Part shown: positions 18,557-26,506 of the stretch, piece after piece
Numbering within the stretch: the stretch's first letter is position 1
How the letters are laid out: the number at the start of each line of letters is the position of its first letter
From: Bradyrhizobium sp. WSM1743
GTDB lineage: Bacteria; Pseudomonadota; Alphaproteobacteria; Rhizobiales; Xanthobacteraceae
Assembly: GCF_000473065.1 (NCBI RefSeq)
Contig: NZ_AXAZ01000010.1
Location: forward strand, 1-64,000
DNA: 64,000 nt
Reading direction: 5' to 3'
The notes under the pieces: generated by a model
Databases searched by the model: none
Told to the model about the DNA's origin: nothing
Seen by the model: only the letters and a program-made list of their open reading frames with translations
Translations under genes and position numbers: made by a program

Positions 18557-20089
18557 TCAGGCCTGGGACGGCGTTTGGGGCGGCGGCACGTTGGCGAGAT
18601 ACCAGTCGCGCAGATGGTTGAGTGAGGGATGCGCCAGCGAGCGCTGGAGATAGGTCCAGATCCGCGGCTGGTGGCGCAGATAATGCGGCTTGCCGTCGCG
18701 GCGGTTGAGCCGGGCGAAGGTGCCGAGCAGGCGCGTGTTCCGCTGCGCCGACATGATGGCGTAGAGCTCGGCGAAGCCGGCAGCATCGAAGCTGGTGTCC
18801 TGCTTCCGCCGTGCCTTGATGTAGCGCGACAGCAGCGTCAGCTCGAGACTTTCAGGCACGTCGATGCGGGCATCCTGGAGCAGCGACACCACGTCGTAGG
18901 ATTGCGGCCCGAGCACGGCGTCCTGGAAGTCGATCACGCCGACGCGTTCGATGCCGGTGCGATTCTCAAGCCAGATCAGGTTCGGCGAGTGATAGTCGCG
19001 GATGATCCAGGTCCGCGGCGCCGCCAGCGGCTTCCTCAGCAGTTCGCGCCACATCGCGAAAAACTCTGAACGCGCCGTCTCGCTCAGCGGCGCGTTGCGA
19101 TCGGGCAGATACCATTCCGGCATCAATCCGATCTCGATCAGCAGCGCCTCGATGTCGAAGAGGGGGATCTCGTAGGTCTGCCCGTCCAGCGGCAGCGTCT
19201 CCGGCAACGCCCTGCCGTGCAGCATTGCCAGCACATCGGTGGCGGCCTCGTAGCGCTCGGCGATCGGGCGCGGCGGGTCGCCTTCGATTACGCCTTCACT
19301 GCCGAAGTCTTCGGTGATCAGGAAGCCGTGGTCGAGATCGGAATGATGGATCGCGGGCGCGGAGATTCCCTGCGCGCGCAGGCCTTCGTCGATGGCGACG
19401 AACGGTCTCACATTTTCGGCGAGATGCACCGCAGCGCTGTAGGATTTTCCGTTGTAGAGGGCCGCACCATCGGGCCGCTGCGGAAAGTTCATGAGGATGA
19501 CGATCTCGTCGTCGCGCAGCAGCCGCGCATAGGAGCGCGTCGAGGCGTCGCCATTCATACGCCGTCGCGTCGCGTCGATGTAGCCGGATGCATCGAGGAA
19601 TTCGCGCAGCGCCTTCAGTCGGGCGACCTGCGCAGCGCCCTTGCCATGACCGGAGATATCGGCCGCGCGCGCATTCGAGCCCAGCGCGGGGCGATGCGTC
19701 AGCGCGATGTCGATGCGGTCCTCAGGCATCGCGGACGGTGCGCGCTCCGGCCATTCGATCAGCACCAGCGTGGCGTCCGGCAGCGGCGACAGCCCGATCT
19801 CCTCCAGCTCGCTCTCGTCCTCGACGCGGTAGAGATCGGCATGCATCACCGGAAACGGCGGCAGCTCGTAGCCCTGCACCAGCGTGAAGGTCGGGCTTGG
19901 CACTTCCAGCGCCTCGTCGCCGGCGAGGTAGCGGATCAGCGCGCGCGCCGCTGCGGTCTTGCCGGCGCCGAGATCGCCAGTGAGGGTGATGACGTCACCG
20001 GGACCGACCAGCAGCGCGAGGTCGGCCATCAGCTGCGCGGTGGCCGTCTCGTTGTGAAGCGCGACGGAGAATGTGGTTGGCGCTGTCAT
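18557..20089 (-). CDS. TsaE-AmgK fusion: t6A ATPase plus anomeric MurNAc/GlcNAc kinase-like domain
   Basis: Two enzymes in one 510-residue chain. Residues 1 to about 150 are TsaE, the ATPase needed with TsaB/TsaD to make t6A37 on ANN-decoding tRNAs; its Walker A is GDLGAGKT at 38-45 and SPTFTLVQGY and HADLYRVED follow. From about residue 165 to the end is an aminoglycoside-phosphotransferase-fold kinase resembling AmgK, with the catalytic loop IIRDYHSPNLIWL (Asp365) and metal-binding IDFQDA (Asp387). AmgK phosphorylates MurNAc at C1, and MurU is encoded just downstream. The stop codon of divL overlaps its ATG by 4 bp. Such fusions are, to my knowledge, seen in related Rhizobiales. Confidence 0.88.
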   Translation of the reverse strand: MTAPTTFSVALHNETATAQLMADLALLVGPGDVITLTGDLGAGKTAAARALIRYLAGDEALEVPSPTFTLVQGYELPPFPVMHADLYRVEDESELEEIGLSPLPDATLVLIEWPERAPSAMPEDRIDIALTHRPALGSNARAADISGHGKGAAQVARLKALREFLDASGYIDATRRRMNGDASTRSYARLLRDDEIVILMNFPQRPDGAALYNGKSYSAAVHLAENVRPFVAIDEGLRAQGISAPAIHHSDLDHGFLITEDFGSEGVIEGDPPRPIAERYEAATDVLAMLHGRALPETLPLDGQTYEIPLFDIEALLIEIGLMPEWYLPDRNAPLSETARSEFFAMWRELLRKPLAAPRTWIIRDYHSPNLIWLENRTGIERVGVIDFQDAVLGPQSYDVVSLLQDARIDVPESLELTLLSRYIKARRKQDTSFDAAGFAELYAIMSAQRNTRLLGTFARLNRRDGKPHYLRHQPRIWTYLQRSLAHPSLNHLRDWYLANVPPPQTPSQA

Positions 20090-22829: not shown

Positions 22830-22949
22830 TCCCTCCCCCGCTTGCGGGGGAGGGCTGGGGAGAGGGTGTCTCCGCAACAGGACAGTCCCGGTGTGGAGAG
22901 AGCCCTCACCCGGCGCTTCGCGCCGACCTCTCCCGCAGGCGGGAGAGGT
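22830..22949. repeat. Palindromic repeat (CTCTCCCGC family) within the 22591-22968 gap
   Basis: Each end is itself a hairpin (CCCTCCCCCGC/GCGGGGGAGGG on the left, CCTCTCCCGC/GCGGGAGAGG on the right) and the middle contains GAGAGAGCCCTCACCCGG. A second copy lies at 44189-44294. The rest of the 378-bp gap between divL and dut shows no gene; it should contain the divL promoter, which I could not place. Confidence 0.75.
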
Positions 22950-22968
22950 GTAACGACTCGCAGCCGTG

Positions 22969-23427
22969 CTAGCGGCCGGTGGAACCAAAACCGCCGGCGC
23001 CGCGATCGGTCGCTGACAAGATGGCCACGGGAACCAGCGCGGCCTGCACCACGGGCGCGATCACCATCTGGGCGATGCGTTCGCCGCGCTTGATCACGAA
23101 GGGCGCCGCGCCGTGATTGATCAGGATCACCTTGATCTCGCCGCGGTAGTCGGCGTCGATGGTTCCCGGCGAGTTCAGCACGGTGACGCCGTGCTTGGCG
23201 GCGAGCCCCGATCGCGGCCGCACCTGCGCCTCGTGCCCGGGCGGCAAGGCGATGGCGAGGCCGGTCGGCACCAGCGCATATTGGCCCGGCGCGAGTGTCA
23301 GCGGCTCGCTGTCCGGAACGGCTGCCATCAGGTCGAGGCCGGCGGCCTCCGCCGTCTGATAGACCGGCAACGGCAGGCCTTCAGCGTGGGCGAGGCGTTG
23401 CAGTTCGACGGTGACCTTCGTGCTCAA
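22969..23427 (-). CDS. dut: dUTP diphosphatase (dUTPase)
   Basis: Hydrolyses dUTP to dUMP, keeping uracil out of DNA. The 152-residue product has the five trimeric-dUTPase motifs: [38 protein letters not shown] and the C-terminal arm [12 protein letters not shown]. The start is a TTG that overlaps the coaBC stop by 4 bp (TTGA). It is the last gene of the ubiE-ubiB-coaBC-dut series, a common order in alphaproteobacteria. Confidence 0.95.
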
Positions 23428-24875
23428 GATGCCGGCTCCCGGGGTTTCTCAGTCACGCTTCTGGCGATGTGCGCGACCAGTTCGATGGCCACCTGTTCCT
23501 TGGTCATCACCGGCCAGGAATCAACTGCAATCTCGCCGTCCTTCGCACCGTTCTTGCGGCTGAGGAGGTGGACCGTGTTGCGGTCGCCGCCCATCACGCC
23601 GGTCGCGGGCGAGACGTCGTTGGCGACGATCCAGTCGCAGCCCTTGCGCGCGAATTTTGTTTTGGCGTTCTCGATGAGATGCTCGGTCTCGGCGGCAAAA
23701 CCGATCACCAGCGGCGGACGCTTGTCGCTCAGCTTCGAGATCGTGGCGAGGATGTCGGGGTTCTCGACCAGCTGAAGCGTCGGCATGCCGGCCGCGGTCT
23801 TCTTCAGCTTCTGCTCGCCCTCGTTGGCGACGCGCCAGTCGGCGACAGCGGCGGCGAAGATGGCGACGTCGACGGGCAGGGCGGTCTGCACCTGCTCCAG
23901 CATCTGCCGCGCCGATTCGACATGCTTCACTGTGACACCAGCGGGATCGTCGAGATCAACTGGGCCGCTCACCAGAATCACGTCAGCGCCCGCGGCCTGC
24001 GCGGCAGCGGCGATGGCAAAGCCCTGCTTGCCGGAGGAACGGTTGGCGATGTAGCGCACCGGGTCGATCGGCTCGTGCGTGGGGCCTGCGGTGATCAGCA
24101 CTCGCTTGCCGGCGAGCGGCTTCGGCACGGGCGGTCGCAGCAGCCGTTCGGCGGCGTTGGCGATCTCGATGGCTTCCGACATGCGACCGACACCGGCCTC
24201 ACCCGCTTCGGCCATCTCGCCCGAGTTCGGGCCGATCAGCACCACGCCGTCGCGCTGGAGCTGCGCGACGTTGCGGCGCGTCGCCGCGTTGGCCCACATC
24301 AGCGGATTCATCGCCGGGGCGAGCAACACCTTGCGGTTGGTCGCGAGCAGGATGGCGCTGGCGAGATCGTCGGCGTGGCCGTTCGCCATTTTCGCCAACA
24401 GGTCGGCCGTCGCCGGCGCCACCACGATCAGGTCGCAGTCGCGCGCCAGGCGAATGTGTCCGGCATCGAACTCGCTCTGCGGGTCGAACAGGTCGGTATA
24501 GACGCGCTCATGGGAGAGTGCGCTCACCGCCAGCGACGTCACGAATTGCTGCGCCGCCTTGGTCAGCACGCAGCGGACCTCGATGCGGCGCTCCTTCAGC
24601 CTTCGGATCAGGTCGAGCGACTTATAGGCCGCGATCCCGCCGCCGATGATCAGGGTGACGCTGGCCTCGGGAAGCGCGCCGGTGCGATGGGGCGTTGGGG
24701 CGATGGATGGCGCTGGCGGCGCCGAAAACGGCGTCAGCGGCTCCTCACGGCCTTCGATCAGCTCCCGCAGGATGACCCGGACCTCTTCCTCGACCGACCT
24801 GTGGTTCTTGGCCGAGCGCAGCCGCAAATAGGTTTTGACGGCGTCGTCGAGCTTGCGGATGGTCAGGCTTGCCAT
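23424..24875 (-). CDS. coaBC: CoaBC with an N-terminal FitA-like ribbon-helix-helix DNA-binding domain
   Basis: Residues 1-47 ([11 protein letters not shown]..., [14 protein letters not shown]) form a FitA/VapB-like ribbon-helix-helix domain. A Pro-rich linker to about residue 73 follows, then CoaC, the flavin-dependent phosphopantothenoylcysteine decarboxylase ([45 protein letters not shown]), then CoaB, the phosphopantothenate-cysteine ligase ([25 protein letters not shown]). The total is 483 residues. There is no ATG, GTG or TTG between the first Met and the CoaC domain in this frame, so CoaBC can only be made as the fusion. GGAGG lies seven bases before ATG 24875. Two palindromes lie just upstream. 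Pantothenate-to-CoA synthesis is cytoplasmic. Confidence 0.92.
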
Positions 24876-24894
24876 GACGCCCTCCAGCACGGAA

Positions 24895-24934
24895 TGATAG
24901 CGATGCTATCACCAACGTGATTGCAGTGCAATCA
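24895..24934 (-). promoter_or_regulatory. Twin palindromic operator upstream of coaBC (FitA-like half-sites)
   Basis: Read on the coding strand, TGATTGCACTGCAATCA is followed after six bases by TGATAGCATCGCTATCA. Each is a perfect 7-bp inverted repeat with a 3-base centre, and their centres are 23 bp apart. The second lies 20 bases before the coaBC ATG; the first overlaps the ubiB stop codon. The half-site TGATAGC is, from memory, the one bound by Neisseria FitA in the fitAB operator. Binding by the fused domain of CoaBC is an inference. Confidence 0.7.
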
Positions 24935-26506
24935 CAAATTCCGGACGGCGATCAGGATCCCGATGAAGGTCGCGGCGATAATCCAGAGCGCCACGGTGCG
25001 CCAGCGGTTCTTGCGGCCCTCGCTGCGCCCCATGGCGGCGATGCTCTCCGGCGACAGGCCTATGCCCTCCCGCGTCATGGTCTCGAGCTGCTCGAGCACC
25101 TTCATCGATCGCTCGGCGATCTCCGGCAGGCGCATCAGCACGCGCGCGATGTCGCCGGTCCCGGTGAGCGCGCCCTGGACCCGGCCCAAGGGTCCGAGAT
25201 TGCGCTCGATCCATTCGCGCACCACGGGGTCGGCGATCTTCCAGATGTCGAGCTTGGGATCGAAGCCGCGCGCCACGCCCTCGACCACCACCATGGTCTT
25301 CTGCAGCAGGATCAGCTCCGGCCGCGTCCTCATATCGAACAGGCCGGTGACCTCGAGCAGCAGCGTCAAGAGCCGCGCCATCGAGATTTCCTCGGCGGTG
25401 CGGTTGTGAATGGGCTCGCCGATGGCGCGGATGGCTTGCGCGAAATTCTCCACCGAATGGTGCGCGGGCACATAGCCCGCCTCGAAATGCACCTCGGCGA
25501 CGCGACGATAATCCCGGGTGATGAAGCCGAGCAGGATTTCGGCAAGGAAGCGCCGCTCCTTCATGCCGAGCCGGCCCATGATGCCGAAATCGACCGCGAC
25601 GAGGCGGCCGGTATCATCCAGGAACAGGTTGCCCGGATGCATGTCGGCGTGGAAGAAGCCGTCGCGCAGCGCGTGGCGCAGAAAACTCTGGATCACCTTG
25701 CGGCCGAGATCTGGCAAATCGACCTGCGCCTCCGCGAGGCGCTTGTGGTCGTTCAGCGCGATGCCGTCGATCCACTCCATCGTCAGCACATTGTGCGTGG
25801 TGCGATCCCAGTCGACGGCCGGCACGCGGAAATCAGGGTCGTCGTGCGTGTTCTCCGCCATCTCGGACAGCGCGGCTGCTTCCAGCCGCAGGTCCATCTC
25901 CATCGCCACCGAGCGCGACATGGTGTTGATGACTTCGACGAGGCGCAGCCGCCGCGCCTCGGCCGAATAGGCTTCCGCCTTGTGCGCGACGAAGAAGAAA
26001 TCGGAGAGATCGCGGCGGAAACGTGCGGCGACATTCGGCCTGAGCACCTTAATCGCGACCGGCTTGCGGACGCCGTCGCGCAAGATTTCGCCGCGATGCA
26101 CCTGCGCGATCGAGGCGGCGGCGACCGGCGGGCCGACGCTCGCGAACACGTCGCTCAGCGGTCGTTCCAGTGACGTCGTGATCGCCGCTTCTGCTTCGGC
26201 TTGCGAGAACGGCGGCAGGCGGTCCTGGAGGCTTTCGAGGTCTCGGGCCATGACGACGCCGACCACGTCGGGACGCGTCGCCAGGAATTGACCGAGCTTG
26301 AGATAGGCCGGGCCCATCCGTGTCAGAGCGCGCGAGATTCGCGGGCCGTGCTTGGCGCTGCGGCGCTCCACGACGCGCGCGAGCTTCAGCGCGAGCTGTC
26401 CGGGCGGCGGCACCAGGCTCGGATCGACCGCGCCGAACACGCCCTCGCGCGCAAACACGAACGCGGCGCGGATCAGGCGCACAATGTGGGTGATGGCAGA
26501 GATCAC
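24932..26506 (-). CDS. ubiB: UbiB-family atypical kinase/ATPase for ubiquinone synthesis
   Basis: A membrane-associated ABC1/UbiB protein required for ubiquinone production. The 524-residue product has the family KxGQ motif ([13 protein letters not shown], Lys70 to Gln73), the Ala-rich loop [23 protein letters not shown], and the catalytic [12 protein letters not shown] with [14 protein letters not shown]-terminal membrane segment (about residues 502-522) follows [11 protein letters not shown]. The start is a GTG overlapping the ubiE stop by 4 bp. It belongs to the ubiE-ubiB-coaBC-dut run. Confidence 0.94.

Follow-up and report, generated by a model that had tools for sequence, protein, structure and literature searches.

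A FitA-like ribbon-helix-helix domain fused to CoaBC, with operator-like palindromes at its own gene, suggests a domesticated antitoxin acting as autorepressor

Introduction

Some biosynthetic enzymes double as repressors, among them NadR and BirA, which use a helix-turn-helix rather than a ribbon-helix-helix (RHH) and, to our knowledge, are not of antitoxin origin. For the protein described here, a CoaBC with an N-terminal RHH, the nearest working analogue, judged by architecture, is the trifunctional PutA (RHH-PRODH-P5CDH). The part of PMC5293562 drawn on here describes PutA as a flavoenzyme with an N-terminal RHH that represses its own operon. In excerpts of PMC3920265 and PMC5086665, the FitAB system is described as four FitA-FitB heterodimers on a 36-bp operator, with the toxin promoting DNA binding by stabilizing the complex. 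Mycobacterial CoaBC is reported, in a section of PMC7794376, to be a dodecamer whose CoaB activity is inhibited by CoA thioesters.

The fusion resembles PutA in joining an N-terminal RHH to a flavoenzyme and in having matching operators at its own gene, repression being predicted in the case of CoaBC. It differs from PutA in enzyme and pathway, in an RHH that is closest to FitA, in that no membrane switch is known, and in that the operators lie at coaBC itself with no conserved regulon seen. With FitAB of Neisseria gonorrhoeae it shares an RHH of the FitA family, FitA being the best solved relative, and, as we infer, a palindromic operator occupied by two RHH dimers; however, the locus studied here is without a toxin gene or a recognizable toxin-binding tail, and an enzyme oligomer would stand in FitB's place. 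As in bifunctional CoaBC (Dfp; TIGR00521, 6TGV) the CoaC and CoaB domains are complete, but an N-terminal DNA-binding domain and operators are added. In one library of open-access papers we found no published description of a CoaBC-RHH fusion and no paper joining CoaBC or phosphopantothenoylcysteine with a ribbon-helix-helix.

We analysed the fusion in a 64-kb stretch of Bradyrhizobium DNA (the window) and in related genomes. The reading that we favour, with a probability of roughly 0.85, is that CoaBC represses its own coaBC-dut transcription by way of a domesticated antitoxin domain, the RHH occupying twin sites over a promoter, in an arrangement that arose by loss of a PIN toxin. It draws on the fusion itself, on the co-occurrence of domain and operator, on footprint-like conservation and on cassettes at the same locus, and from these we infer binding, repression, the role of the oligomer and the order of events. 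CoaBC would then be a second RHH-carrying flavoenzyme beside PutA, from another pathway, and transcriptional autoregulation of CoaBC, of which we found no report in the open-access literature, would be predicted in the widespread plant symbionts Bradyrhizobium and Mesorhizobium and in Bartonella.

Results

The coaBC locus

The genes on the minus strand of the window are ordered ubiB-coaBC-dut, with the following features.

22969..23427, minus strand: dut, dUTPase (PF00692), the downstream gene, which overlaps the coaBC stop
23424..24875, minus strand: coaBC, the RHH-CoaC-CoaB fusion of 483 aa with an ATG start at 24875, from the open reading frame and domain profiles
24881..24885, minus strand: GGAGG, Shine-Dalgarno-like by sequence, preceding the ATG at 24875
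24932..26506, minus strand: ubiB (ABC1, PF03109), the gene upstream of coaBC

CoaBC had a single match in its own genome (8.3 Mb) at E<=1e-40. An earlier note on this DNA had stated that no alternative start codon exists before the CoaC domain. This held for the stretch between the end of the RHH and CoaC, where the coaBC frame of the window contains no ATG, GTG or TTG, so that an enzyme without any RHH part is unavailable from common start codons; it did not hold within the RHH, where an in-frame TTG (24827) lies in helix 1 with no visible Shine-Dalgarno sequence, and a GTG is also found at 24890, upstream of the ATG. An assembly artefact or a wrong start codon might be suspected in a draft genome of 163 contigs, but GGAGG precedes the ATG, and other assemblies, several of which consist of a single contig, show the same fusion at 114 loci. 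The relatives' fusions refute this explanation, and we give it next to no weight. Named Bradyrhizobium loci (L209-L218) showed 86-94% identity to the window CoaBC over the N-terminal 138 residues.

The fused domain, the linker and the enzyme core

The protein is divided as follows.

24750..24875, minus strand: FitA-like ribbon-helix-helix domain, residues 1-42 (PF22513, E=1.4e-14)
24663..24749, minus strand: variable linker, residues 43-71, predicted to be mostly disordered (pLDDT <50 at 43-67)
23427..24662, minus strand: CoaC flavoprotein and CoaB ligase domains (TIGR00521, E=8e-115; Foldseek to CoaBC 6tgv, E=6e-34)

The N-terminus had been assigned to the FitA type of RHH from its letters, and the Pfam profile PF22513 (FitA-like_RHH) agreed, scoring 54.2 bits (cut-off 27). 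When a profile built from 30 fused N-termini was searched against PDB sequences, it matched FitA of Neisseria gonorrhoeae (2h1o/2bsq, E=6e-9 and 7e-9), with the next match, Mnt, far behind at E=0.014. The RHH strand, MASLTIRKL, was placed by homology, and the helices at residues 11-24 and 28-40 were taken from a structure model. Foldseek with a 55-residue model of the RHH ranked FitA chains at the top, but with E=0.05; the monomer model was without the strand, the full-length model had a low-confidence helix at residues 2-7, and neither was taken as proof. The strand reads ASLTIRKL here and ASVVIRNL in FitA, with Arg7 common to both. Arg7 was invariant in alignments of 28 and of 30 rows, and conserved RHH residues were Arg7, Ala22, Ser27 and Glu29 (the 28-row alignment came from 30 picked N-termini, less L031, in which the core motif was not found, and L098).

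The linker, rich in Pro and Ala, leads into CoaC, and there were no invariant alignment columns between 37 and 74. By eye, and compared with free FitA proteins such as those at L128 and L145, a toxin-binding C-terminal antitoxin tail was not recognizable in it. As a member of FitA's domain family, the fused RHH could still serve a FitB/VapC toxin from another locus as its antitoxin or as a regulator of antitoxin type. That reading is very unlikely, in view of the unrecognizable tail and of the own genome, in whose 8.3 Mb the coaBC copy was the sole FitA-like RHH found.

The enzyme core scored 383.9 bits with TIGR00521, against an equivalog cut-off of 219.7, and the match begins after the linker. 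Pfam matches above cut-off in the fusion were RHH, Flavoprotein and DFP; PRODH and P5CDH domains were not detected by Pfam. The motif PAMNPLMW is present in the window CoaBC. The position of the CoaC clamp motif that we take to be equivalent to Cys158 of E. coli CoaC is Glu (GEMAE..E.G.GRM) in every pattern-matched locus, 79 fused and 27 unfused, the pattern having no match in 44 of 150 loci; the Glu has no relation to the fusion.

Palindromes in front of coaBC

The coaBC ATG is preceded by two palindromes of 17 bp, which begin at distances of 36 and 59 bp from it.

24895..24911, unstranded: proximal operator-like palindrome TGATAGCGATGCTATCA, arms TGATAGC and GCTATCA around GAT on the plus strand, centre 24903
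24918..24934, unstranded: distal operator-like palindrome TGATTGCAGTGCAATCA, arms TGATTGC and GCAATCA around AGT on the plus strand, centre 24926, overlapping the ubiB stop codon

The two perfect palindromes with 7-bp arms described in the earlier note, 23 bp apart with one on the ubiB stop codon, are present at these positions, ubiB ending at 24932. Perfect palindromes with 7-bp arms and a 3-bp spacer occur 23 times in the 64-kb window, so one by itself would mean little. In the whole own genome, however, TGATNGCNNNGCNATCA was found in 5 places, of which 3 are perfect palindromes and 2 of those 3 lie side by side at coaBC. An exact TGATNNCANTGNNATCA occurs once in the genome, at coaBC, and one-mismatch versions in 12 places, one of which is the second coaBC site. 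The remaining 11 one-mismatch sites lie away from coaBC (1 was found for a reversed control pattern) and are possible weak trans sites.

Across 25 genomes of the genus, exact TGATNNCANTGNNATCA gave 18 sites in 17 genomes, with 8 of the 25 genomes having no exact site. Fifteen of the 17 exact-site loci inspected were at coaBC and two were elsewhere (L166, L177), one further site, in G212, being outside this count; counting exact matches only, and not near matches, 15 of the 25 Bradyrhizobium genomes thus have the site at coaBC. No conserved regulon is visible in these 25 genomes, as exact sites lie almost all at coaBC, and weaker trans sites are possible.

Co-occurrence of operator and fusion in the family

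Of 198 genomes in the family, 195 gave a CoaBC match, and the best 150 of these 195, window locus included, were analysed. The N-terminal extension was present in close and distant relatives, the RHH being fused in frame at 115 loci and unfused at 35 of these best 150, a proportion that overstates the fused share because the other matches of the 195 score lower and are probably mostly unfused. Counts are per genome and not per evolutionary event; the 115 fused loci span many genera.

The operator score counts matches to the 12 fixed letters of TGATNNCANTGNNATCA within the 120 bp that precede the start codon. A score of at least 10/12 was reached at 108 of the 115 fused loci (70 of them perfect) versus none of 34 unfused loci among the best 150 of 195, the 34 being the 35 less L138, a contig-edge locus with insufficient upstream sequence. 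Controls at the same threshold gave 32 of 2300 shuffled fused upstream stretches and 0 of 115 stretches inside the gene. In genome G055, the CoaBC of L138 starts 14 bp from the edge of its contig, and a different contig of the genome carries a 51-aa open frame with a short match to the FitA-like RHH, so this is probably a fused gene split in two and not an unfused one. Three fused loci (L054, L071, L086) have their sites further upstream, between -156 and -291, which brings the fused loci with a good site within 300 bp to 111 of 115 (best 150 of 195); four others (L053, L055, L061, L066) have only 9-of-12 sites. REP-like stretches were seen between operator and start codon at L054, L071 and L086.

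Among the 115 fused loci, 44 have two good sites within 120 bp and 64 have one. Of 55 pairs of neighbouring sites (score of at least 9/12), 47 were spaced by 22 or 23 bp, which is the spacing of -35 and -10 elements. In 304 half-sites the letters T1, G2, A3, T4, C7 and A8 were kept in 293, 304, 272, 258, 303 and 283, respectively. In Bradyrhizobium the conservation resembles a footprint, with 28 of 34 operator columns invariant versus 0 of 26 columns around and between them (17 of 18 loci, 16 distinct sequences, one locus being dropped for different spacing).

Perfect palindromes near the start codon, as in the own genome, could also be RNA hairpins providing attenuation or translational control in the ubiB-coaBC transcript. 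However, each arm retains TGAT..CA, whereas the inner NN of one arm is complementary to that of the other in just 76 of 152 sites, a pattern that indicates a protein half-site and not an RNA stem. We rejected the hairpin on these arm statistics; the 22-23 bp phasing and the lack of a terminator-like site in 24850-25050 also speak against it, and its probability is slight indeed.

The degenerate sites at some loci would be in keeping with an inert or purely structural relic, the palindromes then belonging to another regulator. Against this, the sites accompany the domain and are missing where it is missing, and the domain, with its invariant Arg7, is conserved while the linker is not. We consider a relic improbable; two further points against it come from free antitoxins and from a Mesorhizobium locus, both described below.

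A candidate promoter within the palindromes

Returning to the autorepressor reading, a promoter may lie within the twin sites.

24903..24931, minus strand: candidate promoter, TTGCAC (24926-24931), 17 bp, TAGCAT (24903-24908), each hexamer lying inside one palindrome

In the window this match is weak (7 of 12 letters), and a standard promoter scan lists none on that strand. A TTG-(16-18)-TA pair was found at 99 of the 115 fused loci (best 150 of 195), overlapping the operator in 91 of the 99. Of the 35 unfused loci, including one whose sequence was too short for scoring, 1 had such a pair. The count is partly built in, as the operator letters contain TTG and TA. Among 46 twin sites, the first site had TTGCAN at positions 4-9 in 30 cases and the second had TAGCAT there in 20, an asymmetry that would be expected if the first site covers the -35 and the second the -10.

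A second fused lineage

A search of the order covered 249 genomes, 240 of which gave a match. Among the matches listed, at least 5 full-length fusions fell outside the own family, all in one other family (f24), and the other non-family rows started at model position 25 or later. The named loci of this second fused lineage come from Mesorhizobium, Phyllobacterium, Zhengella, Nitratireductor and Bartonella. A site of at least 10/12 lay within 300 bp at 19 of its 20 fused loci, examples being TGATTGCATTGCTATCA in Mesorhizobium and TGAAATCATTGAAATCA in Bartonella, so that here too the palindromes travel with the extension. Over all named loci the same test gave 42 of 44 fused versus 0 of 35 unfused, several named loci being from the same genomes as the family set, so that the counts are not additive. 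A search of the class (289 genomes at E<=1e-32, a strict cut-off that may miss diverged fusions) returned only the window locus and one match without an RHH.

Trees were built without the short RHH. The midpoint-rooted order tree (90 rows, 11 of 101 candidates being dropped as the start pattern was not found) placed the two fused groups apart, and the unfused Methylobacteriaceae and Hyphomicrobiaceae fell on the side of Bradyrhizobium; L250 (Bartonella) formed a long branch outside its expected place. As to a single origin, the tree of 150 loci (best 150 of 195) needs at least 6 changes and the order tree of 90 at least 10, where changes may be gains or losses.

Toxin-antitoxin cassettes at the same junction

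In the window no PIN toxin gene lies beside coaBC, the neighbours being ubiB and dut. At 7 of 70 unfused loci, however, the stretch from ubiB to coaBC contains a gene for an RHH antitoxin, and the same 7 have a PIN-type start motif (L128, L133, L145, L252, L260, L265, L282). Pfam confirmed the FitA-like RHH in L128, L252, L260, L265 and L282 and the PIN domain in 6 of the 7 cassettes (L128, L145, L252, L260, L265, L282). L128 reads ubiB - TGATTGCAATGCAATCA - fitA - fitB - coaBC, and L145 has a cassette with a 12-of-12 site. L133, from the same genus as L128, has kept fitA while fitB is reduced to its two ends, and its operator scores 9/12. The cassettes of the Rhizobiaceae group (L252, L260, L265, L282) look intact, those of L252 and L260 having operators of only 9/12. 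By eye, two PIN toxin types, VVDTSALIAVLN and LDTNVVSE (L252 and L260 compared with L128, L145, L265 and L282), occur at the same ubiB-coaBC junction; the site may therefore attract toxin-antitoxin cassettes repeatedly.

The same operator class was present at 10 of 19 distinct loci fetched for free FitA-like antitoxin genes in the family, L128 included, 8 of the 10 being close copies of one type; the other 9 had no good site. That the same sites stand at part of the free FitA-like antitoxins is a further argument against a relic.

With such cassettes occupying this position in relatives, the fusions resemble toxin-antitoxin modules whose toxin has been lost, and, from sequence, the fused genes look like the product of such loss at a recurrent cassette site. 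The proposal of the earlier note, that a CoA enzyme had captured an antitoxin DNA-binding domain, is made likely by these antitoxin-toxin cassettes. With a cassette, a decayed cassette and a fusion all at one locus, there is a concrete route from a selfish toxin-antitoxin module to a housekeeping regulator.

The Mesorhizobium locus L249 departs from its sisters. Its RHH is identical at 28 of 40 positions to that of L252 and at 26 of 40 to that of L260, but has 20 of 40 in common with its sister L238 and 23 of 40 with the Phyllobacterium locus L235. Its operator, TGCTAGCATTGCATGCA, is identical to that of L260 and unlike that of sister Mesorhizobium. The CoaC part begins MTLSDKR, seemingly with the old Met (compare MTLSGKR in L252), and L249 looks like a separate, younger fusion. 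That domain and site changed together is a strong sign, although from one case, that they work together, and it too argues against a relic. The pairing of domain and operator, with this natural swap, makes the specificity of RHH for operator testable.

Proposed mechanism

In the scheme that we propose for the autorepressor, unfused coaBC probably depends on upstream promoters, and a fitAB-like cassette between ubiB and coaBC would have brought a local promoter and operators. The cassette would then have lost its PIN toxin gene, with the N-terminal domain of the antitoxin joined in frame to coaBC, and the fused RHH would have continued to repress the local promoter. RHH dimers, formed within the CoaBC oligomer, would bind two 17-bp sites (half-site TGATNNCA) 22-23 bp apart. 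A promoter within the ubiB-coaBC junction would thereby have its -35 and -10 covered, and expression of coaBC, and of dut, which overlaps it, would be kept at a fixed level. Less favourable to this scheme are the four fused loci with 9-of-12 sites only, the 64 with one strong site within 120 bp, the weak promoter match in the window, the 9 free antitoxin loci that have no good site and the 11 one-mismatch sites away from coaBC. In FitAB, FitB tethers two FitA dimers on the operator; the CoaC oligomer may take this part, and a dodecamer of the mycobacterial CoaBC type could supply the tether.

A variant in which CoA, acyl-CoA, CTP or FMN on the CoaC/CoaB core switches DNA binding by the RHH is possible, but we put it forward tentatively. 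It would fit the inhibition of mycobacterial CoaB by CoA thioesters and the CoaBC dodecamer (part of PMC7794376), the precedent of PutA, for which flavin redox state is reported to matter (part of PMC5293562), and the retention of the domain in Bartonella, whose genomes, to judge from contigs of 1.6-1.7 Mb, may be small. The linker, variable and predicted to be disordered, counts against it, as it would offer no rigid path for allostery. A broader version, to which we give about the same limited credence, is that domestication of the cassette into a sensor-repressor has taken place repeatedly, with the CoaBC oligomer as the scaffold that replaces the toxin, and that ligand or flavin state might tune coaBC-dut, coupling CoA supply to dUTPase expression.

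Other features of the window

A single 510-aa frame at 18557-20089 on the minus strand joins TsaE (PF02367, E=2e-31) to an APH-type phosphotransferase domain (PF01636, E=4e-20), the latter presumably AmgK-like. Between dut and a PAS-like sensor kinase, repeated G+C-rich inverted repeats, CTCCCCCGCTTGCGGGGGAG and CTCTCCCGCAGGCGGGAGAG, were observed at 22830-22950 and appeared REP-like by eye.
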